Assembly: GCA_026929865.2 (NCBI GenBank)
Contig: CM049403.1
Coordinates: forward strand, 34,427,501 to 34,491,500
Reading direction: 5' to 3'
DNA from: Hyperoplus lanceolatus
Taxonomy: Eukaryota > Chordata > Actinopteri > Uranoscopiformes > Ammodytidae
DNA: 64,000 nucleotides
How positions within the stretch are numbered: the stretch's first letter is position 1; the number at the start of each line of letters is the position of its first letter. The notes below the pieces were generated by a model that saw only the letters and a program-made list of their open reading frames with translations, did no database searches and had not been told where the DNA came from. Positions 27,969 to 63,629 of the stretch are shown here, piece by piece. The translations under genes and the position numbers were made by a program.

Positions 27969-30900
27969 ATGATCCAGTCAACAAACGAGCCCCCACCTGA
28001 GATGGAAACATGGACCAAAGAGGACGTGCACCGCTGGCTGACGACAGATGTCAAAATTCATCAGAGTTGTGCTGACAAATTCATTGAAGAGGAAGTTTCA
28101 GGAGACATTTTAGGAGACATTAATAAGAAAAACGTATTGGACTTTGGAATAAAACACGGCCCCGCTGTCAAAATCACATCTCATCTACAGAGGCTAAAAG
28201 AAGGACCACAGCACGAGGCACAGTTTCCAGCTGAAGTGGAAAACTGGACAAAAGAGCAAGTGAGCCAGTGGCTGCACAGTGTAAAGGTTGATCGCAAATA
28301 TGCAGAACGGCTCCAAGAGGAAGACTTGACTGGAGATTGCCTCGTTTGCTTCACGGAGCAGGATTTTTTAGATCTGGGCCTGAAAAAGGGTCCCATTATG
28401 AAGATCCTCAAAGACCTTAATCGACTGAAAAAGAAAGAGTTCGTCCCAGTTTCGGTTGGTCCCAGTTTCGATTGGCGCTTTGGGTTCAAGAAAAAGACAA
28501 ATCTGCCACTTGGAAACACTCTAGAAAAGGACAAAGGACCAGCGTCAGCAGAGGCAAAGGTTGTTAGTATATCGGTGTTGTATTTGTATTCTTAGTTCAT
28601 GTTAAATAATGACATGTTTGTACAGTAACATCTGTGCAGTAGTTAAATACAGATACAGCTCTGGAAAAAAATTAAGACCAGTCTGGATTTTTTTTTTAAA
28701 TCTTCATATCTAAATTACTTAAAGGCCTACTTCACCGGTGGGAATATGAAGGTGTCTTGAATTCTGAGATCCTATGTAGTATAAATGTGCAAAAAAAATT
28801 GAAATTAGTTCATCCTAGCCTGAGAAAAGGCAGAAAGAGTGTTTTTTTTAACCCTATATTAATCTTACTGTGACATCACAGTAAGATAAATATAGGGTTA
28901 AAAAAAACCTTACTTTGTAAATACTACTGTGATTTATCCTACTGTGACATCACAGTAATATTTACAAAGTAATTTTTTTTAACCCTATTTTTATCTTACT
29001 GTGATGTCACAGTAAGATTAATATAGGGTTAAAAAAAACCCTCTTTCTGCCTTTTCTCAGGCTAGGATGAACCAATTACATTTTTTTTTGCACATTTATA
29101 CTACATAGGATCTCAGAATTCAATACACCTTCATATTCCCACCGGTGAAGTAGGTCTTTAATGGAAATGCTCTTGATGACAATATTTTTGAGGGGAATTT
29201 GGTAGAAATGTTGTCAGTAGTTTGTGGATTAAAACCAAAATGTTAATTTTACTAAAACATATGCCTTTAAATAGTAAAACGAGAGGCACTGAATATTTGG
29301 AGTGGTCTCTTAATTTTTTTTTCCAGAGCTGTACAAAGGAGTATTGCTGCACTGTTCAATCCAGGTCAAGCTTTGTTTTCTAATCTCTTTTGCAGAACCC
29401 TGCCCTGTTGATAAAGGATACCCTGGATAACCTCGGCACAGATGATCTAAAGTATTTTAATTTCCAACTAAAAAATTGCTCAGAGGGTAAACCCATTCCT
29501 CGAAGCAAACTGGAAAATAAGGACACGATAGACATTGCCACATTAATATGTACACACTATAAATGTGAGGAGGCTTTACGGGTCACAATAGAAATTCTCC
29601 ACAACATGAATCGGCTAGACCTTGTTTTTCAACTGGAGAGCCACGTGGGTAAGAAAACTAATCTAGCATCGCACACTGTACTGCTGTAAACCTACAGATT
29701 TCTCCAAAGCCTGATTCTGTTTTAAGTTAAGTTATTTTATTAGTCAATGGTTACATTGAAATTTGTCAATCCCCTTTCAAGTTCCCACACTCCAGAGGGG
29801 GTCCTCAGACAGGGTCAGCCATAGTACAGCGCCCCTGGAGCAGTTTGGGGTTAAGTGTCTTGCTCAAGGACACAATGGTAGAGATGGTGGGCACCGCAGA
29901 CGTTATACCAGCCACTACTAGTTTTACAACTAACACCCTCCTGTCCGGTGCCGGGGATCGAACCAGCAACCTTATGGTTACTTGTCAGCCACCTTCTCTC
30001 GAGGCCATGCTAACACCCTTGACAATGACTGACTCTCTAATGCCTCCTTTCCACTGAGCAGTAAGTATCAGGTTTGTTCAGGTCAGCATGGTAACGCTAT
30101 ATCTGGCTTGCGTTTTCCATCACCCTTACTTTGGGATGGCTTGGTACCCAAACGAAGAGGTCCCAAAACTAGGTGCTGCTTGGCCCGCTTATTTTGGGAC
30201 CCTTCCCAGGTTTTGACAGTGGGAAACGCAAATAAAAGTGAGCCGTAATGAAAGCAAAAACACTCAGTGGAAATGAGGTATAACAACAATTTGTTCATCA
30301 ATTGATTAATCTACATTGTGTAATTGTTTAATTGTTTACACAGGTCAGTATAAGCGCCATGATGAGTCTGCTGATGAGGAGGACCCAGCGACGTCAGGCT
30401 TACCATCCAATTCAAGATGTAAACACACGAAGAAGGAAGAAAAAAATCTTCTTAATTCAATTCATGTGAAAGTAGAAGTGGCATCAAGCTCTACAGGTTA
30501 AGTGAAAACTTTTTTCATAAACCCTTTGTCATGTGTGTTGAAGCCAAATGCTAATCAAAGTCAAAATATTAGCCGGTTAGATCGGTAGCCAGCTTATATT
30601 ATATTCATGTGTTGATTTGATGAGGCTTTATGGTTCATACAAGATGAATCGGCGTTATTTTTAGATCTAAGCTGGAGAGCCATATTGGTTAGCATAACTT
30701 GCTTAACTTTTTTCCCCCTGTAACTTTCCCCCTTTAGCTGCTCAAAATATAATATATATTATCATTTCGACTATTTACATTTGTTTTTTTTTGCTTTCTG
30801 TCATATCCGTTCATTTGTTCACTCACTCATCTATTGTTTAAACAGGAGTGGAGAAGAATCCCACATGTTCTTCTGAAATTGAGAAGGACGCAGCGGAGAC

Positions 30901-33599: not shown

Positions 33600-35011
33600 G
33601 GGCAGAAGGTGTCATTGCGTACTGTATGGAATGTAAAGCCCACTGAGGCAAATGTCTATTTGTGATATTGGGCTGTACAAATAAAACTGATTTGATTTGA
33701 TTTAAACCAGCATGTTCTGTGTAATTCTTCGTATTTTAGTCTGTTGTTTTTATTGTTTTGTTATTGTTTGTATATATCCCTACTCTGTTTTATTGTTGTA
33801 TATCTGTTTTTTTTAAATCTTTGATTAATTGTAAATGTAAGGTGTCCTTGGCAAATGTATTATTTCTTCTTACTATTATTACAAAGGACATGATGTTGTA
33901 TGCTTATGTTTTGACTCTAACGATATTAAAAATAAGTTATGAAAAACTACAAACCCAAGCATCCAAATTAAGTGATCACCAGTAATATCTGAAAAAAATA
34001 TAGACCAATAATATTATAATAATATATATAATATAATAATACATAAATGAAAATAATAAAAAAATATATAGCTATACTTTTTTTAAAGAATATAATAAAT
34101 AATTTTTTTAAAGTTGTTCAAAATTAAAGGGAGGAAATGGTGACCAGATGTAATATTAACTAATCCATCCTCTTCTGTTCTTGCAGGCCCCGGCTGTGCT
34201 CATTAAAAAAACTCTGGACAGACTTCAGAAAAGCAGCCTAAAATCTTTCAAATTCCAACTCAAAAACTACCACAGGGATGGCTGCAGCGCTGTTCCTCCA
34301 AGCAAACTGGAGGATAAGGACACCATGGACATCGCCGAAATAGTGACCGACTACTACGGCTGCGAAGAGGCTTTACGTGTCACGCGAGATATTCTCAACA
34401 AGATAAATCAGCGCGCTCTTGGTTCTCAGCTCGAGAGCCACATCGGTAAGAAAAACAAATAAAATATATATCAAAAAATATGTATGAAATTGTTGCAATA
34501 TCAAAGTATTACTTGCTGATCTTGGATATGTTATTACTTTGCAAATTGTCCTTTAGTTGTTAAAAATCCTAATCCTTTTCTCCCTTTTCTTTTATATATA
34601 CACTGTTGGTATGTATATATATTTCTTTCCTTTTCATTCTTTCTTTTTTATTACATTTTTTAATTGTTCATTTATCTTCTTTAATTATTGTTTTCTTCCA
34701 ATTATTTCTATGTTTTTTGCTCCTAAAATAAAGCATATAAAAAAATTAAAAATAAATACAATATTCAAAAAAGTTTATATATTGTTCTTAACATTATTTA
34801 CATTTCCTTTAGTGTTTTCTGATCATGACAGCATCTTATTTATTCCTTTACTGTTGTTTACACAGAAGTGAAGGAGGATCACAGCAGTTCTTCTGAAAGT
34901 GAGAAGGACAAAGAGGAGCCGGAGTCATCGTCTGGAAAAAAACTCAAGAAAAAGAAGAAAAAAAAGAAAAGATGTTGCTTTTTTGCCGTAAATATCGACA
35001 TGAATTTTTAA
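33119..35011 (+). CDS. Unit B: PYD protein with basic Cys-Cys tail, SAM domains absent
   Basis: Exons 33119-33319, 34187-34445 and 34866-35011, all with GT-AG and matching phase, give about 201 residues. The start MSESTTEPPPE matches units A and C, but the frame then jumps to the acidic linker (ESQRESLPLETLSEVEE) that in unit C follows the second SAM domain, so the SAM segment has been deleted in frame. The middle exon is a complete PYD (LIKKTLDRLQKSSLKSFKFQ, SKLEDKDTMDIAEIV, EEALRVTRDILNKI). The last exon is Ser/Glu-rich and ends in a run of Lys and RCCFFAVNIDMNF. In mammals PYD-only proteins regulate inflammasomes; a decoy or membrane-tethered adaptor role is inferred here. Confidence 0.8.
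33380..33710 (+). repeat. (GATA)n microsatellite inside an old LINE/SINE tail
   Basis: GATA repeats at about 33446-33598, interrupted once near 33510-33530. They sit between TTTTTTACTGGGAGTTTTTT and a tail with GTAAAGCCCACTGAGGCAAA and GGGCTGTACAAATAAAACTG. Intronic in unit B. Confidence 0.9.
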
Positions 35012-39137: not shown

Positions 39138-41425
39138 ATGAGCCAGTCGACATCTGAGCCAGCACCTGAGATCGAAACATGGTCCAGAGAAGACGTCCAC
39201 CATTGGTTGACGACAGAGGTCAAAGTTCATCAGAGCTGTGCGGACAAATTCTTTGAAGAGGAAGTTTCAGGCAATTTTCTAGTTGACTTTGAAAAGGAGG
39301 ACGTATTGGATCTAGGAATAAAACACGGCCCCGCTGTCAAAATCACATCTCATCTACAGAGGCTCAAAGAAGGAACACAGCACGAGTCACAGTTTCCAGC
39401 TGATGTGGAAAACTGGACAAAAGAGCAAGTGACCCAGTGGTTATTGCAGCATGTGAAAGTATGTATTTTATTTGTACACATTTTACACATGTTTATTATT
39501 ATTATTTTTCTGTTTCTTATTCGGTTGGAGGCTTCAGATAAGCCCACTGTTTTTTAGTCTCTCCCTGCACTGTAATTGTTTGTTATCTTTGTTGTTCTGT
39601 ACATTTTAATGGTGCAAACAAAAAAAACCTTAAAACCTTAAACGTAGGTAGATGGGGAAAAGGCAGAACGATTCCAACAGGAAGACGTGTCTGGAGATTG
39701 CCTGGTTTGCTTCACCAAGCAGGATTTTCTAGATCTGGACCTGAAAAAAGGTCCCATTGTAAAGATCCTCAAAGAGCTTCAGCGACTGAAAATTCAACCA
39801 GAACCAACACTGCGTCCTGTCCAGGGTATCTGCACATTTTTAAAGTTCAAATTTAAAAACTTTTAAGACCTTTTAAGACCTCTAAAATTTTAAATTAATA
39901 CCAATAAGTATTGGGTGTCGGATTTGCCAGATTATCATTGAAGGATATAAAACACTGGTAAAATAAAACATATCAATTTAACAATAAAACTAGAAAAATA
40001 GAGAGAAAAATAAAAAGACAAGCTAATTCTGTTTGCCCTGTTCAAATGTAATGCCGTTCCTCAAACAATTCCAGACTTTTTAAGACATTTTAAGACCTTG
40101 AATATCAAAACCTAAATTCAATGACTTTTAAGACTTTTCAGGGATCCGCGGCTGCCCTGGTCCAGTCCCTCAAGTCACACAGACACTGGAAAATCTCACA
40201 GAACTGAAAGAATCTCAAAAGGAAAATCTGCCGCTGGAGAAACCTGCAGAAGTTGAGGAAACTTTTGAAGCGGTGCAGGCAACAGCACCACTAGGGGCGA
40301 CCAAAGAAACAGCTGTGGTAAAACGTTTTCGTTTTCATATTACTTTCAAAGAATATCATTATGTATTGCCCTTATAATGTACACTTTCAATTTCTTCAGT
40401 CTACTGCATATTGTACATATATTGCAATTAATGTTCCACATATTGCAATTTTTTTTTTTTAACTTTTTTATTATATTTAATTTTATATATACCGATTTGT
40501 TTTGCCTTACCTTTGGCACTACTAAGAATGTATTAATTATTAATTGTAAATATTACTTATCTTATTTTACCTAATTTTGCACCACCTTTTGCACTCTTAT
40601 TGCACCACACAAACACACACACACACACACAAACACACTTACACTTACACCGTGGGTCGGAGACACTAAATTTCGATTCCTCTGTATGTCTGGCACATAT
40701 TTTAAATTGGCTGTAAAGCTGACTTTGATATATAACTAATATTAGTAGTTTTTAGTTTGTACCTGTGTTATGATGGTTGACTGTGAGTTTGTTATGTCTG
40801 CTACTGTGGCCAAAATGAAATGAAAAAGGCGTATCAGTGTATTAATAACAAAAAAATGTCTGCTCTTCTGTCCCTCCAGATCCCAGCTGTTGTGATTAAA
40901 AACATCCTGGATAAACTTGAAAGAAATGACCTAAAATCTTTTAAATTCCAACTCAAAAATTACAACAGGAATGGCTACACCGCTGTTCCTCAGGGCAAAT
41001 TGGAGGACAGGGACACCATGGATATCGCCACGTTAGTGACAAACTACTACGGCTGTGACGAGGCCTTATTGGTCACTAGAGATATTCTACACATGATCTG
41101 TCAGCTTGATCTTGGCTCTCAGCTTGAGAGGGACATGGGTAAGAAAAAAAAATTAAATGTTCACTTGCTTACTTTAGTTTTTTTTAAATACCATGTAACC
41201 CTACATTAAATTGCCCAATATCAAATTTTCCTAAAATATTATTTAATGTATTTTCCCGTGTCTACCTGTCAGCTACAGAATTAGAGCCTACAGACTTATA
41301 TTGTTTTTTCAATTTTTTCTGGTTATAATTATGCCTTAAGTATGCCTGCTCTTTGGTCATCACAGTAACTGTTCATTTGTTAACTCACTCACTTCTCTAT
41401 TGTTTACACAGGAGCAAGGGAGTGA
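39138..41425 (+). CDS. Unit C: SAM-SAM-PYD protein with transposon-derived introns and shortened tail
   Basis: Exons 39138-39458, 39648-39825, 40142-40317, 40880-41138 and 41412-41425 keep phase throughout and give about 315 residues. SAM1 starts ETWSREDVHHWL; SAM2 is split by an intron after QWLLQHVK and continues VDGEKAERFQQEDVSGD. The third exon is the acidic linker (ESQKENLPLEKPAEVEE) shared with unit B. The PYD reads VIKNILDKLERNDLKSFKF, GKLEDRDTMDIATLV. The last exon stops at once (GARE then TGA), where units A and B have a Ser/Glu, Lys and Cys-Cys tail; homologous bases continue past the stop with shifts. The introns at 39459-39647 and 39826-40141 are absent from A and E and look like insertions, so if not spliced the product ends at 39557. 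Confidence 0.65.
39459..39647 (+). mobile_element. LINE-tail-like insertion forming an intron in the SAM2 codons of unit C
   Basis: The 189 bases between GTGAAA and GTAGATGG are missing in units A and E. The content (AGGCTTCAGATAAGCCCACT, CTGCACTGTAATTGTTTG, an A-rich end) resembles a 5'-truncated LINE 3' end. GTATGT and TAG lie at the limits, so removal restores the frame. Confidence 0.6.
39822..40159. mobile_element. hAT-type element inserted in the linker codons of unit C
   Basis: CAGGGTATCTGC ... GGCTGCCCTG with 8-bp flanks GTCCTGTC (39814-39821) and GTCCAGTC (40160-40167), 7 of 8 identical. Excising the element with one flank restores the frame. It also supplies GTATCT (39826) and TTTTCAG (40141), which splice in frame. 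Confidence 0.85.
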
Positions 41426-42600: not shown

Positions 42601-45600
42601 TTTAAGGCAAGCTTTCAAGGGGAGAGTTGTTATGTCTCCTGCTGAAAGTAAGCAATAGCAAGGGCTAAGGCAAAGAGGAGCAGTTCAGAAGTCACAATAT
42701 AAAACTGGATATACAGGTTCGCACACACATCGCACATATAGTCTTGTCTCTAAAAATAGCCTGATGCCCGCCCAAACAAACAGAAGTATTTGTGTAGTAG
42801 AGGATCTTGGTCCTGCCCTTAGGCAAGGGCGAGGTTTTAGAAGACAGGTAAGAAAGAATAAAGCAAGAATGCACACAGGACTATACATAACATTGGAATG
42901 ATTAATATTACCTTTATCTCACTGCCTTGTTTCTTCCTTAGTCTGTTGTAGTTTTTACCAAATTCAAAACAAGTTCCTCTGCAGAAAACGGTTTAGGGGG
43001 CATTGCTAAAACACTTTCATCAATTTATCGTATGTTTTATTATAAGGCATCTTACTATAGATAAAGATCATTACTAAATCATACCTGAATGAATCATACC
43101 TTATAAACTCAATTGTCTGTGAGGTGAGTGGGAGTGGCTATCGCTTTAAAACCGCAGGCAGAGGAAGTAATGTGGCAGGGTTGGCTAAAACCTCACACAC
43201 AGGTCTTGGCAACATCATGAAAGGCATACGTTTTCAACTTAGCAACATTTACAGTAAATGAGGGAGTGTAAAGGGACACCATGGATATCGCCACATTAGT
43301 GACAAACTACTACGGCTGTGACGAGGCTGTATTGGTCACAAGAGATATTCTGCACATGATCTGTCAGCTGGATCTTGGCTCTCAGCTCGAGAGGGACATG
43401 GGTAAGAAAACAAATAAAAATCAAAAGTTCAGAATCACTTCAGAAAAAAAACTTGCTCACCTTCGATTTTTCTTTTCTTCCATGTAACCCTGCCCAATAT
43501 CTACACATTTTAAAAGGTTAAAACATTTTATTTTCCAGTGTCTACCTGTCAGCTATTTGAAATGGCAGAGCGAAAGCTTAAGACTTCTATTTATTTTCAG
43601 AAACCTTTAGTTATAATTGTATAGGAACTTTTGATTGATTGGCTCACTTCTCTGTTGTTTACACAGGAGCAAGGGAGTGAGGAGTGGGGAGGACACAGAA
43701 GATTCAGAGTCACCAAGAAAAAAATAATCTTGTATTTGTTCATAAATGTGAAATACATTTACAATAATGCTTTTTATAGTCATCCTTGCACTGCATAATA
43801 ATGTCTCCTAATTTTTTTTTACGATCACTGTGTACTGTCTGGCATTCTATGAAAAAAAAGTTGAGCCTGACACCACTTCTACCACAAAACAGTAGAGTGA
43901 CAACTAGTTCATGGGCCAGTGTGTGGGAAATATCTGAAATCAAGAGTTCTTAAGAATCCAGCTTGTCTTTGAGAGTTTTATTATAAGCCAATATACTTGC
44001 TCAAACAGGGTTAAGAGCAGAGGGACAATTAATTCAGAGTAATGTCAGGGGATATATGGGGTAGAAACTAAGGAACGGGTTGCTGACTAGACTGGGCTGC
44101 GTTTGTCGAGGCTTCACGGGAAACAAGATTAGAATGTGCTTAAGCCTTAGTGTGTGAGGCCAGTTTCCTCAGAACAGGATGTTGAGCTGTGTTGGCAGAG
44201 GAAGATGTGCAACTCTGGTAGCAATGACAGGAAACACTTGTGTCATATACTCAAAAGTGACAATAAAATATGCATGGGGTAATTATGAACATACAGTATA
44301 TGTGATAAAATCCACAAGATACTGTATATGACCAATACAAATATTCTATAAAAATCAAATGCATGTGATTGGCTACGTTTTACGTGATGGACATGGAAAA
44401 TATTCTGTTCCCCTTGTGATTGTCATTACATCCTAAAATATTATTGCTGCCATATTGTAAAATGCTGACTCATTGTGTTATAAACCAGTGTACAGAGTTT
44501 TGTGTTTTTATTATATTTGAAACTCATAAAATATTCCTTAAAACTCATAAAATATTCCTTAAACTGGACTTCCTGGATCATGATTATTCCTCTAACCTGT
44601 ACATTGGAAGCAACTCTCCCTTATACCTCTGTTTTGCTATTGCTAACATAGCTTTTCTGTTCAACCAGTTTTTACTGAAATACAATAAACAGTCAGATAT
44701 AATTAAATACCGCCAAAACTGAATGACTCATCCCTTCTGAACTCAATTGTCTGTGAGTGGGCGTGACTATTACTTTACAACTGCAGGGACGGGAAGAAAT
44801 ATAGGAGGGATGGGCTTAAGTTTCATACAAAGGTTTCGGCAACACAACATTTTCCTCTCAGCAAAATTTAAAGCAAATAGATGAGTGTACAGGTAAATTC
44901 CAGGGGAGATGGTCAGCGGTTGAAATCCAGTCTGAGGTAAGTGGAAAAAGTTTTTTTAAGCTATATTGATATAAATGTAAAGGTAGGGGAACCTCAAAAC
45001 TGTGTTAATAATGTATGATGTCTTACAGTAGGCGGAAATGTCATTCATTCTCTTATGTTGTTTCTTTGAATGAATTGTATTACATTTAATTCCTAGTTCA
45101 GAGGCTGAGATTTAAAACAGTTTGGGAACAATGTTCCACCAGGGCATGTCCTTTCGTGTCTAGACTGGTTCACACAGATTTGATCATTCTCAGGAGTTGC
45201 TCAGTTGATTTGTGTATAGAAGTATAAAGGTTTTGACACTCAAACAGTGTTCAGCACAAACTATCCTTTTATCTGGTTACTTGTTGGTTTGAACTTGGTG
45301 AAGCTGCTCTGCAGTATTTTTCTTTCAGTTTTTTTAGGGCCGGGTATTATTTTTTGGTATATATATATATATATAAATAGCGGGAGCAAAGAGGTGCAGT
45401 TCAGAAGTCACAATACAAAACTGGATGCACGGGTTATCGCACATAAAGGTATGTCTCTATGAATAGCCGTAAAGTCTGCACTCCCATACAGAAATATAAA
45501 TGTGTAGTAGAGGAGCTTGGCTCTGCCCACAGGCAATGGTGACGTTGTGTAAGAGAGGTAATAAAGAATGAAGTAAGAATGCAATCAGGACTATAAATAA

Positions 45601-52353: not shown

Positions 52354-55300
52354 ATGAGGCGCTCAACAACAACGCCACCACCTTCCATTGAACAATGGAC
52401 CAAAGAAGACGTCCACCAGTGGCTAATGACAGAGGTCAAAACTCATGAGACATGTGCAGACACATTCTCTGAAGAAGAATGGTCAGGTAGCAGTTTATTA
52501 TATTGTGACAAGAAAGACATATTGGACTTGGGACTAAAACATGGTCCTGCTGTCAAAATCAAATCTTACCTAGAGAGTCTGAAAAAAGGAGCACAGCAAG
52601 AGTCACAGTTTCCAGCATATGTGGAAAACTGGACAAAGGAGCAAGTCTCCAAGTGGTTGCTGCAGCATGTGAAGGTTGATGGCAAAAATGCAGAACGTCT
52701 CAAAGAAGAAGACGTGTCTGGAGATTGCCTGGTTTGCTTCGAGAAGCAGGACTTTCTGGACCTAGGGTTGAAAAGTGGTCCTGCTATTAGGATTCTGGCA
52801 GAACTCCGTCAGTTGAAACCAGAGAAACCAGAGCCAACACACATCCCCAACCTTCACACCAGCACAGATCAAAAAGAAGCTGCAAACCCCATTACGCCTG
52901 ACTTAAATCTGGCTCAGGCCATGACCGCAAAACAAGAAGAATCGTATAACAAAACTGATTCAAAAACTGACAAAATGTTGGAATATAAATCAGAAAAAGC
53001 TCAGCAGCAGCCATCCAAGAAATCTTCCGAAAAGGCCGAAATTTGGCCGCCAAATTCACACAACGTGGGAGTCAAGAGGAAAGAAACAATTTTGGTAAAT
53101 ATCTATATTGTTTTAAATGTCATAGTATCTGAAATATTGTATCCTGTAAATAAACTTAAAATAGTAGGGGAGAACGGGGTAAGTAGGCACACTTTTTACT
53201 CTAGTGAGAATTGCTTATCACCTAAACATCTTGCAATAGTCATTCCTACATTAAATTGAAGCTTAAGGTGTTGGCTTGAAATGTGTACCCCTCACTTTTT
53301 CTATCTTATTGTAATAAAGAAGAAATTAATCATCAAAGACACCCTTACACATTGTGACAACCAACCCCATCAAGGGGTCGGTTGTCAAACACTATGGGGT
53401 TGTTTGTCACAATGTTATCTTAATGGGAATAATCTTAAAAAGAAGGCAAGCAAGTAGAACTAAATTTGAAAGTTTAATTGCATTGTCAAGTTGACAAATA
53501 GGCCTACATAACTTACTGTAGCCTTGGCAGTTGGTCTAGTTTGGGATGCACTGGGTTGTTTTGATTTTGTTGCTTTTTTTTCTTTTGCATGCTAGCTGCC
53601 TTTTCCTGCTCTATTCTTTCCTTCTCTGGGGTGTCAGTGAGGATACAGCTTGACAATTTATTTCATTATTGGGTTCCTTTTCTGGCTGCAGCCTTGAGAT
53701 AACATGTGACAACCAACCCCCCAAAAAATGTGACGACCAACCCCACCTTGAATGTCTTGCTAGCATCAAGGCCAACAACCATCTGACAACTAAGTAGCTT
53801 GCTAACCACAATCTAAACTATAGTTTACCCTTCACACTTTGTATGGGTAACAAGTGTTTTGTTATAAACCCAATGTGTAAAAGCCTAGAAGAAAAATGCT
53901 GAGGAGCTAAATATTTTGAATTTGACATGAAAAACACAAACAGTCATCTCACCTCAAATTCAGCAGTCTAACTCCAAGGAAGACAATGTAGGTGACCTCT
54001 GATCCCAATTCTGGATATTTACATACCAAAATTTCACAGACGGCACCTTCTGGTTCCGAGATATAACGATTGTGACAACCAACCCGTGTGACAAATTACC
54101 CCGTTCTCCCCTACACATAACATAAAAGTCACGAATGAGAGGGCGGGGGGGTGGGGGGGGGGCACTCGTGGTATAGTGGTTAGGGGCTCAGTCCTCAAAA
54201 GCAGACGACCACGGGTTCAAAACTGGCCCTTGGTCGACACCAAACTGTCTAATAAAGGATGAATTGCCCAAAAAAATATTTAATAATAATAACAATAATA
54301 ATTTGACAATGAGTTGTTTTATAAAAAAAACATACCAAACTGTGAATTGAAAAACGTTTCGTCTAAATATTTATTTCTGTTTCTTTCTGCAGGCCAACGT
54401 CCTACCAGAAATACCCAAGATCACTGTGAATATCCAGGAAACCCTAGAAAACCTTTCAAAAACAGATATGAAAAAATTTCACTTCCACTTAAAAGACTAC
54501 TCTCAATCCAAGCGGAAGCCTATTCCGTGGGGTAATCTGGAGGACAAGGACACCCTCGACACAACTAAGTTAATGACTGACCACTATGGAAGCAATGAGC
54601 CTTTACGAATCACAAAAGACATCCTCAGGGACATCGGTCAGCGTCAACTGGCTAACCAACTGGAACACAACATGGGTAAGAGAATCAAAGTAAAAATATA
54701 TTCAAAGAGTGATGTTTCATTACATTGGCTTTAAACACATACTCAGTAGAATTTTCCTAACAAGCAAAGTATAGTCATACAAAAATAATCCCTCTCAAAG
54801 ATCACTTTTTCCCCACCAGGTCAACTGGAGCAGCAGTGTCTTTTTGTTAGTGTTTTATTTTCTACTTATTAATCATGTAGTTTACTGTTTACAGGGCAAC
54901 TGGAGCAGAAGTGTCCTACTAAAGAAGCTCAGAAGAAAGAAACCAACCAGGGTGACAAACTTAAGGATTTGTTAACTTGTGCGGAAAACTCACTTGACAG
55001 CTTTACCAGATTTGTTGTTGTTGTAAACAAGAGCAGTCCAGAACAGGTGCCGTATCTCCAGTTTTTGAATAAGCTGAAACTGTTCTGTGTGTTAGACTTT
55101 GACCCTAACTCTAATGCTACAGGTGGACTGTGTCATTCATACAGAGAGTCACGGGTGGCCAATCTGCATACACCCTCACAATATCAAGGACAGACTGATT
55201 CAGTGATTAAGAACCTTAATCTCTACAAACAGACCAGCTGGGTCTTCTGCAATGGCAGACATGACCTTGAAAGCGACTCCAACAAGGAGTTAGACTACAG

Positions 55301-58300
55301 GAACTGGCTGAGGAAATCATGCAAAGATATAGAGCAGTTGATTTCATTGATTTGCAACCCTGAAGTTCTTCTCCTTAGAAGAAGTCTCATCATATTCCTC
55401 CTACTTTCACCTGTGGACTCTGAGAAAGACCCGATCTTTGACACGTACATGTCTTTCATAAAAAACACTGAAGAGGAAAGGATCATCACTATTTGTGACT
55501 CTCAGAGCACGTATGAGAAATGGAGGGAGCTGATACAAGAAAAGTGTGATTTTGACATTGAACGTCTATCCATAAATGAACTATCCCTCAGTGAGATCAA
55601 TGGAACCATATTGGCCCTGGGACCATTCAGTAAGTCATCTGGAAGGCTACTTCCCTCTTCCGGTTCGAGCGCTGTTGTCCTAAAACAGAAGGATGAAGAC
55701 TTGTTGACAGCTCTGGACATTTTGTGTCTGAATCAATGCGAAAACATCCACGATGAAAACAGTCCAGAGTTTCAAGACTTCAGAGTCAAAGAAGAGGAGG
55801 AATTCTACAGAGGAGGGAAAGCCAAATGGTGGAACTTCTACTTCTGTGAAAAAGACAAAGAGAAGCCATTTGTCAAAAGAGACAAGTATGAAAATGTGAA
55901 GAAGATGATTAGGTCTCAGCTGGAACATTCAAAGGACATGTGTGTTCTACTCAATCTATTTCACCATCCGGGCTGTGGTGGCACCACATTAGCAATGCAT
56001 GTAATGTGGGATCTCCGTCAGGAGTTCAGATGTGCCGTGCTCAAAGACAACACGCTGCCTGAGGAAGAAGTTGCCATTCAAGTCAGTAGACTCATGAAAC
56101 TTGAAAGTGAGAAACCATCTCCAGTTTTGCTGTTAGTTGATGATTTAAATGAAACCAAGAATCCTTCCGATCTTGTGAACTGCATTCAAAAAGCTGCAGT
56201 GGATAACTTAAACAAAACTGTGGATGACGCACAAAACTGCAAAGTCATCATCCTAAACTGTGTTCGTTCCCATAGCCCAAAGGAGCAATACAGACAACAC
56301 AATCCAACACAAAGTCAATTCATTACTTCTAAATTGACACCAGAAGAACAGAAGGAGTTTGAAAAGAAACTCAGAGATCTCAAAGAAACTCATGAAAAAC
56401 CTGAAAACTTTTACAGCTTCATGATCATGGAAAGCAATTTTGACCAAAAATACATAGACGATCTTGTTTGTAACACACTGGAAAAGTTTGATTTCAGCAA
56501 AAAGGAGGACAGACTGTTTGCCTTCCTTGCATTACTGAACACCTATGTGGCAGCATCTGAAATCTCTCTCTCACTCTGTGAAGATTTTTTGGGGATGAAA
56601 ATGATTCGCTGGGAAGGGGATAGTATAATGGAAAGAATGCAGCCATATTCAAACTTTCTCATCATAGAAAGGGTTGAAGATTGGGGAGGATACAAAGGAA
56701 TCCGAATCCTTCATCAAACCATAGCATCTGTATGTCTGGAAGAATTGGAAAGAAGCTGCTATCTAAAAGTAAGTGATATCACGATGGAGATTCTTCACTG
56801 TGATCTGTTCTTCAGTGTTGGAGTTGTCAAACACAGGTTCATGCTCTCAGTTCAACAGATGTTGATTGAAAGGCAGTGCAAGAAAGATAGTGATGAAAGA
56901 GAACTGTTTTCTCTTCTCATTGACAAAATCCACAACCAGCAAGGGAGACAAACTGTCGAGGAAATCTTTGAGACAGCAGCATCCAGGTTTGTGTGAAGTG
57001 CATCTATTCCTCAGGCACTGGCAAGATACTTGTACATCAAAGAGCGTGACTTCCCAGAGGCTCTGAAATGGGCTGAGAAGGCCAAGAACATTAAAGAAAA
57101 CCCATTCACATTTGACACAATTGCACAGATTCACAAAAGCAATTTAAAAACTAACATCGACAGACAAAATCAGGAGACATCACACAATCCAGAAGACTTG
57201 GACATTGACCTTAAAATGGCACAACATGCTATCACATCATTTAAAAGGGCTCAAGAGCTGGCAGAGGCAGAGGATGAACCTGAGAAGGAAGTTGCTGATG
57301 ATGAGTCAGATGACTATCCCAGGAATTCATACAATGTTAATGGCTATGTTGGTGTGCTGGAAATTGCTTTCCTGATCTTTGAGATACTGAGCAGGTTGCC
57401 CTTCTTTGAGGAACGTGATCCAATGAAGAAGAAGTACCTTCAGAGTTTTCTGCAAAGAAAAATCCCAATCACCAGTGTGTATAAGGAGGACAATGAGATC
57501 AACAACAGATACGTGGAGATCATCAAAGAACACGAGCTGTTTCTCCTCAGTTTGAAAACTGAAGTGAAAGAAACTTTTGAGTATCTTGACAGTTACTTCA
57601 TGTATATAAAAGCGAACAATTCAGAATTTGATACAAAGAATCGTTGGACAGCCAGTGATCTTTTTAAAAAGTATGTTACTCTTTTTTGCTCTGCACCAGA
57701 GGACATGAAAAAAGAACGACAAAACAATCCTACTCTCAATTTGAAAATTGATGTTGAGGAACGAAGATTGTTCCTTGAAGTGAAACAAGCAGATACATTT
57801 GCAGGGATTCTACAGCATTTGGACAAACCTGCCAAAGAAATTGAGGAGGTCACAGAGTGCTATGCATTCTTGCAAAAACAACAGCAGTTTATCAACCACA
57901 GACAAAAGACAAAGGAAACAATCAATTTCATCTTGTCAAACATCGTTCTTTACCTTTTGAAACAGAAATCTAAACATGTGAAGAATCACAGCCAGCTCTC
58001 TGCTCTACTTTCGAAAACCCTGCAAGATGTAGGACTTGGGTATCCCTTCCCGGACCCATACTACCTGGCCTTGTTGCTTTTCTGGCCAAGTCCAACTGAT
58101 GAAAATACAAAAATTGTGACATATGTAAGAGCAATTCGAAAGTCATCTTACAAGTGTCTGACTTCCCTGTTTCGAAAAAGGAGGGCTGTTACCCATCTCT
58201 ACCTGGGAAAAGAAGAGGGACTCAAGAGGCTTGTTTCTAAGCCCCAACTAGATGACCATTTTAAGAAGATGCGCCGGGATGACCTTGCACAACTTTGGCG

Positions 58301-58526
58301 GACTGGAGATTTTTTTAAGGAAAAAGCAATCTTCAACCGCCTTCAACGGGTCAGTGGAACCATTGAGCAAGGAGAGGTGTTTGCCAATTATGGAAAACTT
58401 AAAATCCCTGTGCGTCCAGCTCTCATTGCTGGTATCAGAAGTGGATTCCGCGCAGAAAAGGTTTCCTTTTACCTTGGTTTTGCTATAAATGGACCCATTG
58501 CTTATGATATCCAGATTGAAAACTAG
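52354..58526 (+). CDS. samd9l: Unit E: SAM-SAM-PYD-SAMD9/9L-like protein with one in-frame TGA
   Basis: Exons 52354-53094, 54393-54675 and 54895-58526 give 1551 codons, with TGA at codon 1042 (56994-56996). SAM1 (~8-75) and SAM2 (~86-153) resemble units A and C. Residues ~260-342 are a PYD (IQETLENLSKTDMKKFHFHL, NLEDKDTLDTTKLM). From ~365 the SAMD9/9L core begins: a SIR2-like region (VLDFDPNSN, YRESRVANLH), P-loop HHPGCGGTTLAMHVMWDLR with G701, and Walker B PVLLLVDDLNE (~751). After the TGA come TPR-like helices (SIPQALARYLYIKERDFPEA) and a C-terminal region ending GFAINGPIAYDIQIEN. Human SAMD9/9L are about 1590 residues, cytosolic, interferon-linked antiviral and growth-restricting proteins with an AlbA_2 anticodon-nuclease domain before the SIR2-like region. 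Only about 25 residues lie there in E, so AlbA_2 seems missing. The ATG at 52354 was chosen because MRRSTTTPPPSIEQW aligns with A and C. Confidence 0.85.
53165..54113. mobile_element. MITE-like element (TAGGGGAGAACGGGGTAA ends) in unit E intron 1
   Basis: TAGGGGAGAACGGGGTAA and TTACCCCGTTCTCCCCTA are exact inverted ends. The interior has several TGTGACAACCAACCCC repeats and their complements. The first six bases match the ends of the 47823-52265 element, suggesting a related group. Confidence 0.88.
54155..54275 (+). mobile_element. tRNA-derived SINE
   Basis: A-box-like GTGGTATAGTGGTTAGGGG and B-box-like GGGTTCAAAACTGG, with the tail CAAACTGTCTAATAAAGG. A G-run lies just before it. Located in unit E intron 1. 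Confidence 0.65.
54811..54842 (+). other. Duplicate acceptor and exon start in unit E intron 2
   Basis: CCCACCAG|GTCAACTGGAGCAGCAGTGT (from 54820) repeats the true start ACAG|GGCAACTGGAGCAGAAGTGT at 54895. Both would keep phase for the next codons (QLEQ), but the upstream copy lacks a donor nearby and runs to TTTTTGTTAG. Confidence 0.75.
56994..56996 (+). other. In-frame TGA in unit E
   Basis: The frame before (AASRFV) and after (SASIPQALARYLYIK) is the same, with no shift, and the next 509 codons are open and family-like. TGA could come from CGA by a CpG transition. The following bases AGT do not match the TGA-CTA readthrough context. Confidence 0.92.
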
Positions 58527-61286: not shown

Positions 61287-63629
61287 AGCGGCAGGGGGGA
61301 CTTAGTTTTTATACAAAGGGTCAGAAGTGTAACAGAATTTAGATCTTACAAAGAAAGGGAGTATCCACTCATTGGACAGAAGGCTGTCAACATCTTACTA
61401 CCCTTTGCCACATCCTATCTGTGTGAGATGGGCTTTTCCACTGTTGCTGCACTCAAGACAAAGTACAGGTCCCAGCTTAACATTGAGCAAGAGTTAAGAG
61501 TAGCAGTATCAAGTTTGAAGCCCAGATTTGGAATGATGTGCACTGCAAAGAGGGCTCACTGCAGCCACTAAAATACAGAGCAAATTGTATTTGTGTGTAT
61601 TATAGCAGAATGTGTTCATATAAAACAGAGAAATAGGGAAATAAGTTCAAAATAATTGTGAAGGTGAATTTAGTTATATTAAAAAAGCTCAAACTGATGT
61701 AGCTGCCAGTTTCAAATAGTTCAGGGTTCAAGGCTTTTTTAATGTCTTGTGTTATGTTCAGGGAAAGTATGCAAATTATACATTAAATATTGTTGCAAAT
61801 GTTGCACACAAAGAGTAATGTTTATTTTTAAGTCATATATATTTTTGAAAGGGAATAAGCTGATGAAGCTGACTGACAAGTGACCAATGTTTACTGTTTA
61901 AAAATGTTATTAATTAAATGAAAACCCCAGAGAATCATTTGCTCTTGTTTCTGTGTTTTGAGATTCACACAGACTGAACGGTCTTGTTTAAATGTTACAA
62001 ATTGAGTTAATAAACTTGGAAATTGTTTTAAGATGTTGCAGATGTCAGCAAATTTTATTAATCTATTTTAATAATAAGGTGATTTTATGCAGAATGCTGG
62101 TGCTAGTAACTCAAACTCATATAACTCTTATACAGATAAATAAATAAATATTAGCAGGTTCTCAATAGTATTTCAATTTAGGGGGGTCGCGAAAAAATTT
62201 CAGTCTCCTAGGGGGGGCATGACAGAAAATAATTGAGAAGCACTGCAATAGCTCAACATTTCAGCTTTCATTTCCAGGTATTCACATCTGGATCTGATAC
62301 ACAACTGAGAAGATATCATTATTTGTAAAGGAACACCACATTTTTAGGCGAGCAGAAGTATTGAAACAGATAGACTTTAAATAAATTAAAGTGAATAAAC
62401 CGTAATATTTTGTCGCAAATACTTTGCTTGCAATAACTGCATCAAGCCTGTGACCCATTGACATCACAAAACGTTTGCATTCTTCTTTTGTGATGCTTTT
62501 CCAGGCTTTCACCGCAGCCTCATTCAGTTGCTGTTTGTTTTGGGGGGTTACTCCCTTCGATCTCCTCTTTAGCAGGTAAAATGCATGCTCTATAGCGTTT
62601 AAGTCTGGAGATTGACTTAGCCAGTCTATAACCTTCCACTTCTTGCCCCTGATTAACTCCTTCATTGTGTTTTGGGTCATTATCTTGCTGCATGATGGAG
62701 GATCTTCGAATCAGTTTGGTTGCATCTTTCCTTAAATTGTCAGACAAAATGTTTCTGAGTTCATTTTGCTGTTGTCATCATGTGTTACATCATCAATGAA
62801 GAATAATGAGCCTGTCCCAGAAGAAGCCATGCAAGCCCAAGCCATGACATTGCCTCCACCGTGTTTCACAGATGAGCCTGTATGTTTGGGATCATGAGTA
62901 GATCCTTTCTTTCTCCAAACTTTAGCCTTTCCATCACTTTGGTAAAGGTTCATCTTGACAACAACACAGTAACACATGATGGCAACAGCAAAATGAACTT
63001 AGAAGTCTACAGAAACATTCGGTCGGCCAATTTAAAGAAATATGCAACCAAACTGATTGGAAAATGCTCCATCATGCAGCAAGATAATGATCCGAAAAAA
63101 CTGCAAAAACAACAAAGGAGTTCATCAGGGGCAAGAAATGGAAGGTTTTAGACTGGCCAAGTCAATCTCCAGACTTAAACGCTATAGAGCATGCATTTTA
63201 CCTGCTAAAGAGGAGATCGAAAGGAGTAACCCCCCAAAACAAACAGCAACTGAATGAGGCTGCGGTGAAAGCCTGGAAAAGCATCACAAAAGAAGAATGC
63301 AAACGTTTTGTGATGTCAATGGGTCACAGGCTTGATGCAGTTATTGCAAGCAAAGTATTTGCGACAAAATATTACGGTTTATTCACTTTAATTTATTTAA
63401 AGTCTATCTGTTCCAAAACTTTTGCTTGCCTAAAAATGTGGTGTTCCTTTTCAAATAATGATATCTTCTCAGTTGTGTATCAGATCCAGATGTGAATACC
63501 TGGAAATGAAAGCTGAAATGTTGAGCTATTGTCTCATATTCATCTTTTGGTGTCAAACCCAAATGTTTCCAGTCTACAGCAAAAATAAAGGAATTGGCCT
63601 CACTGTTCCGATACTTATGGAGGGGACTG
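61089..63629. mobile_element. Palindromic Tc1/mariner-type fragment
   Basis: CAGTCCCCTCCATAAGTATC at the left is the exact complement of the right end, with TA on both sides. Both halves carry the C-terminal half of a Tc1 transposase pointing outward: on the minus strand about 62300-62980 and on the plus strand about 62950-63495, each with SPDLNAIEHAFYLLKRRSKG and SMGHRLDAVIASKVFATKYY. It therefore consists of two copies of the 3' half joined head to head near 62960. Frames contain shifts; inactive. Confidence 0.88.
61195..62245 (+). mobile_element. hAT element, internally deleted, inserted in the Tc1 fragment
   Basis: CAGTGCTTCTCAA ... TTGAGAAGCACTG with a perfect 8-bp duplication CAATAGCT (61187-61194, 62246-62253). 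A frame at 61305-61571 (EYPLIGQKAVNILLPFATSY, MGFSTVAALKTKYRSQLN) is the C-terminal dimerisation region of hAT transposases of the ZBED5/FAM200-like group. A (TA)n tract lies at 61220-61281. Confidence 0.92.

Follow-up and report, generated by a model that had tools for sequence, protein, structure and literature searches.

The 64,000-nucleotide stretch of contig CM049403.1 from Hyperoplus lanceolatus analyzed here (the window) carries a three-exon gene in which two SAM domains and a pyrin domain (PYD) precede the core of SAMD9/SAMD9L proteins. The locus probably belongs to the SAM+pyrin subfamily of SAMD9 known from teleosts and would encode a STAND-like cytosolic defense sensor with PYD filament formation as its output instead of tRNA cleavage. 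Upstream of this sensor, the window holds a complete companion gene for a short SAM-SAM-PYD protein. More tentatively, the two may represent a linked sensor–adaptor pair of percomorphs, in which a SAMD9-type sensor carries SAM-SAM-PYD in place of the tRNA nuclease and a stand-alone SAM-SAM-PYD protein, descended from that front end, relays its signal; a defense family that shuts off translation by itself would then have changed to inflammasome signaling through filaments.

Sensor gene and SAMD9 core

The sensor gene and its nucleotide-binding motifs are located as follows.

52354–53094, + strand: sensor exon 1, with start codon, two SAM domains, and linker (from splice borders and SAM_1 match)
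54393–54675, + strand: sensor exon 2, pyrin domain, phase 0 in and phase 1 out (from PYRIN match)
54895–58526, + strand: sensor exon 3, SIR2-like region, STAND-like nucleoside triphosphatase (NTPase), and C-terminal part of the SAMD9 core, broken by a TGA
55962–56000, + strand: P-loop HHPGCGGTTLAMH, containing PGCGGTT, with Gly at the canonical Lys position
56121–56144, + strand: Walker B motif PVLLLVDD, read from the translation and aligned relatives

The three exons have GT/AG borders and join in phase to a frame of 1551 codons, TGA included. In Pfam, SAM_1 matches two stretches of exon 1 (E 2.3e-16) and PYRIN matches exon 2 (E 5.2e-21). No AlbA_2, NACHT, or LRR family appears at E ≤ 1 in the sensor pieces scanned, a limited negative since HMMER filters discard most matches above 0.1. 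The profile search suggested by the initial annotation hence returns two SAMs and a PYRIN, no AlbA_2, and a STAND match below threshold. That annotation had read the exons as encoding SAM-SAM-PYD followed by the SAMD9/9L core; phase, splice sites, and domains bear this out, while an intact whole protein is contradicted by the in-frame TGA. The P-loop and Walker B motif that it named are both in place. At the P-loop Lys position, Gly is found in the window and in 54 of 68 relatives (55 of 69 rows), Ala in 14, and Lys in none; the Gly-for-Lys substitution of the SAMD9 family (GGT/S) is described in the available text of PMC5445408. The C-terminal part yields TPR_2 at E 0.36 and no OB family in Pfam, and its homologous frame (56997–58523) sits behind the stop. 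By eye, a near-copy of the exon 3 start is seen at 54820–54840, in the intron shortly upstream of the exon 3 acceptor.

Among structures in the PDB, the best match of the sensor SAMs is the polyhomeotic SAM (E 4.9e-6), with those of Sfmbt, Shank, and SARM1 also close. The PYD is nearest to the PYDs of NLRP6, ASC, and NLRP3, several of which were solved as filaments.

Up to the stop, the exon 3 core aligns to human SAMD9 chains with E 2.2e-166. The alignment begins at residue 229 in a chain of 1434 residues and at residue 245 in one of 1450. If both chains end at residue 1589, which we take to be the length of human SAMD9, core homology would begin at about residue 384. The tRNase domain of SAMD9 comprises residues 156–385 according to the accessible parts of PMC13245274 and PMC12331169. 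Thus, just the tRNase domain would be absent, with the PYD preceding a core that retains a SIR2-like region alignable with human SAMD9. No hidden AlbA_2 between PYD and SIR2-like region is detected by Pfam, by the human SAMD9 alignment, or by hidden Markov model (HMM) scans of the relatives.

Structure prediction, likewise proposed as a check, places the core with human SAMD9. The AlphaFold2 model has a mean predicted local distance difference test (pLDDT) score of 82.8 (five models, 71.7–82.8), and in Foldseek human SAMD9 structures occupy ranks 1–7 (9zjs, E 6.7e-60). Beyond SAMD9, the list continues with AAA ATPases, among which the NB-ARC proteins NRC3 (rank 9) and NRC1 (rank 15) and also Apaf-1 (rank 32) appear. 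The root-mean-square deviation from the top-ranking SAMD9 structure is as high as 21.1 Å (template modeling score 0.58 by query), which we attribute to domains being placed differently. As anticipated, exon 3 found no counterpart among phage records.

A probable exchange of AlbA for PYD among relatives

We typed 273 retrieved proteins, fragments included, with HMMs built for SAM, PYD, and AlbA. Two of the retrievals scored only candidates sharing most words (7997 and 7991), and one used words from the first 500 residues, which favors SAM-SAM-PYD proteins, with 120 of its 169 matches listed. PYD occurs in 119 of the 273 proteins and AlbA in 57, whereas none has both; 52 have no SAM, PYD, or AlbA. 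The tRNase domain is accordingly not detected in the SAM+pyrin subfamily, with AlbA in 0 of the 119 retrieved PYD proteins, so that a tRNA-nuclease reading is not transferable to this subfamily. Together with core homology that begins where the tRNase domain ends, this agrees with the initial view of a PYD in place of AlbA_2. The same domain order, sought in other proteins, recurs in 67 of the 68 relatives of 1490–1600 residues, which have two SAMs and one PYD without AlbA, and the remaining one has a single SAM and a single PYD, again without AlbA. Five full-length open reading frames (P0168, P0196, P0208, P0212, and P0214) lie on contigs of 5.2–6.1 kb, which suggests that they are spliced transcripts including the PYD exon.

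For the core, a quick tree of 51 rows (50 hand-picked relatives, midpoint root, support from the Shimodaira–Hasegawa-like approximate likelihood ratio test (SH-aLRT) only) groups 20 PYD rows with one Astyanax row in which no PYD is detected (SH-aLRT 100), and 22 AlbA rows, including that of a ray, fall outside this group. Owing to the Astyanax row, which is probably a truncated gene model, the PYD label requires two changes on the tree. The topology fits a replacement of AlbA by PYD that happened once in teleosts, earlier than the divergence of Electrophorus and Prochilodus from salmonids, pike, and percomorphs. A Nibea protein of 1855 residues (P0129), in which SAM-SAM and PYD units recur ahead of the core, was considered as a longer form of the sensor and was not used, as it may equally be a gene model joining neighboring genes.

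The sensor architecture has been in print since 2017: a SAM + pyrin subfamily of SAMD9 in fish is reported in the available text of Mekhedov, Makarova and Koonin (2017; PMC5445408), so that the initial statement that no description of this layout was known is not borne out. In the accessible part of a study of salmon gill poxvirus infection (PMC7509425), a SAMD9L gene, paralog not specified, is among the strongly upregulated genes.

A companion SAM-SAM-PYD gene and its copies

Upstream of the sensor, companion gene A is complete (27969–30501, 333 residues) and is followed by further copies.

27969–28559, + strand: companion gene A exon 1, two SAM domains
29396–29648, + strand: companion gene A exon 2, PYD (PYRIN, E 2.7e-18)
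30344–30501, + strand: companion gene A exon 3, tail ending in a stop, SAMD9 core absent
34187–34445, + strand: lone PYD exon, no SAM exon found adjoining
39138–39458, + strand: copy B, first SAM plus the beginning of the second
39648–39828, + strand: copy B, rest of second SAM, end approximate
40880–41138, + strand: copy B PYD exon, open frame
43272–43401, + strand: PYD fragment (3' half); a duplicated tail region comes after it at 43643–43793

The extra PYD exon, the PYD fragment, and the duplicated tail region point to tandem duplication and partial loss of the SAM-SAM-PYD unit. In copy B, the second SAM is split by a 189-bp GT..AG stretch (39459–39647) that may function as a newly gained intron, whereas copy A and the sensor have this SAM unbroken.

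A search with the first two exons of companion gene A returned 57 proteins, 55 of them new, and SAM together with PYD was found in 18 of these 55. Eleven of the 18 stand-alone candidates have a tail of at least 50 residues after the PYD. They come from at least nine percomorph genera (Cottoperca, Siniperca, Epinephelus, Plectropomus, Larimichthys, Trematomus with two, Scomber, Notothenia, Pagothenia, and one more protein). The Cys-rich tail end typical of most stand-alone relatives is not kept in copy A. For three stand-alone/full sensor pairs from the same species (P0219/P0144, P0220/P0121, and P0227/P0135), the longest contig is equal in size; the members of each pair are therefore probably on the same chromosome. 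In a SAM-SAM-PYD tree of 42 rows, the 11 stand-alones with copies A and B are split from 29 sensors at a support of 100/99, the side of the root not being placed. P0226 is among the 42 rows, and the sensor rows comprise 28 hand-picked relatives and the window sensor; P0117, P0118, P0230, P0231, P0232, P0233, P0236, P0249, and P0269 were left out as fragments, short-tailed, or sensor-like.

In the best model of the Cottoperca stand-alone protein P0219 (mean pLDDT 71.4), both SAMs and the PYD are predicted with high confidence and the tail is disordered, but the other four of the five models are poor (49.4–52.4). Its Foldseek matches include the PYDs of ASC and NLRP3 and the tandem SAMs of liprin, none reaching E ≤ 0.001 (best, 6.0e-3). 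The companion protein could be an adaptor, an amplifier, or a decoy. Apparently, the stand-alone gene is undescribed; no description was found in open-licence literature, where few searches were aimed at it specifically.

Elsewhere in the window, open reading frames lie on both strands at 62282–63495. They are presumably remnants of a Tc1-type transposase, and one piece scanned matches no Pfam family at E ≤ 0.01.

In-frame stop, alternative readings, and known systems

Within exon 3, the sensor frame is interrupted once.

56994–56996, + strand: in-frame TGA at codon 1042 of 1551; this column holds an amino acid in 68 of 68 full-length relatives

As the sequence stands, the gene encodes a 1041-residue product that ends inside the core. 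Beyond the TGA, the frame stays open for 509 codons to the TAG at 58524–58526. A motif spanning the stop column matches 120 of 218 retrieved proteins. Since database proteins hold no stops by construction, the 68 intact relatives say nothing about how rare stops are in this gene. The ratio of post- to pre-stop divergence is 1.10 in the window and 1.01–1.21 in 16 relatives, so that no decay is seen, and the TGA looks like a recent nonsense change, one allele, or a sequence error. Removal of the stop as an intron was considered and rejected: the GT..AG stretch around it measures only 28 bp, is not a multiple of three, and is encoded by the relatives. Unless the stop is an error or allele-specific, a 1041-residue protein without the C-terminal part is expected.

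Three points weigh against a filament-forming STAND-like sensor at this locus, namely this TGA, an NTPase that reaches Pfam nSTAND3 only at E 0.018, under the cut-off, and a retained SIR2-like domain that could itself be the output. If the sensor copy were a young pseudogene and companion gene A alone were functional, both the TGA and the altered or incomplete state of the neighboring copies (lone PYD, copy B, and 43-kb fragment) would be accounted for. Yet 509 codons remain open and the divergence ratio falls within the range of the relatives, with no decay visible, and a sequencing error or a single allele fits the stop equally well; we consider loss of the sensor rather unlikely. The truncated product might instead be active in its own right, loss of the C-terminal part lifting autoinhibition. 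That part is thought to restrain human SAMD9/9L (PMC13245274 and PMC11221667, as far as their accessible text goes), and the C-terminal truncation F886Lfs*11 of human SAMD9L is constitutively active in the available portion of PMC11221667; moreover, a stop in the last known coding exon would not be expected to trigger mRNA decay. However, the truncated protein would lack the nuclease domain too, and we give this reading little credence.

Two further alternatives concern the output. The PYD could be a brake that binds and blocks ASC or other PYDs in the manner of PYD-only proteins, with the output elsewhere. PYD-only proteins are indeed among the PDB matches, albeit weakly (2hm2, E 0.029; 4qob, E 0.033), but the closest matches are the NLRP6, ASC, and NLRP3 PYDs described above, several of them from filament structures, and within a STAND-like protein the PYD occupies the effector end; we regard a brake as improbable. 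Alternatively, SAM and PYD would serve for clustering only, and the SIR2-like domain would act in NAD or nucleotide metabolism. Its retention and alignment with human SAMD9 favor such a role, whereas the available text of Mekhedov et al. (PMC5445408) calls the SAMD9 domain a variant Sir2-like one, and a SIR2-like output appears very unlikely to us.

For the favored sensor with PYD filament output, we infer opening, clustering, filament seeding, and the partner as follows. The C-terminal half would keep the sensor shut, as in the published SAMD9 model, until a viral or stress signal opens it. Opened cores would associate, and their clustered SAM-SAM-PYD ends would nucleate filaments of other PYD proteins rather than direct the cutting of tRNA-Phe. 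Candidate partners are ASC, caspases with a PYD, or the stand-alone SAM-SAM-PYD protein of the linked gene. An AlbA-to-PYD exchange on a conserved sensor core would amount to a natural swap of a direct effector for an adaptor-recruiting one, and makes it testable whether the sensor or the front end sets the output.

The closest known system is the fish SAM+pyrin subfamily as presented in the accessible text of PMC5445408; both have SAM and pyrin on the SAMD9 core, and the present copy differs by its stop codon. With human SAMD9/SAMD9L, the sensor shares the SIR2-like and NTPase core at ~40% identity, the Gly at the P-loop Lys position, and an N-terminal SAM. The human proteins have one SAM, the tRNase domain at 156–385, and no PYD, whereas the fish sensor has a PYD and no detected tRNase domain. 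NLRP inflammasome sensors resemble it in having a STAND-like NTPase with a terminal PYD; in contrast to them, the fish protein is built on a SAMD9-type core and shows neither a NACHT nor an LRR match. Companion gene A, finally, parallels ASC and other short PYD adaptors in being short and in combining a PYD with a second assembly module, but carries SAM-SAM instead of a CARD, and a tail of its own.
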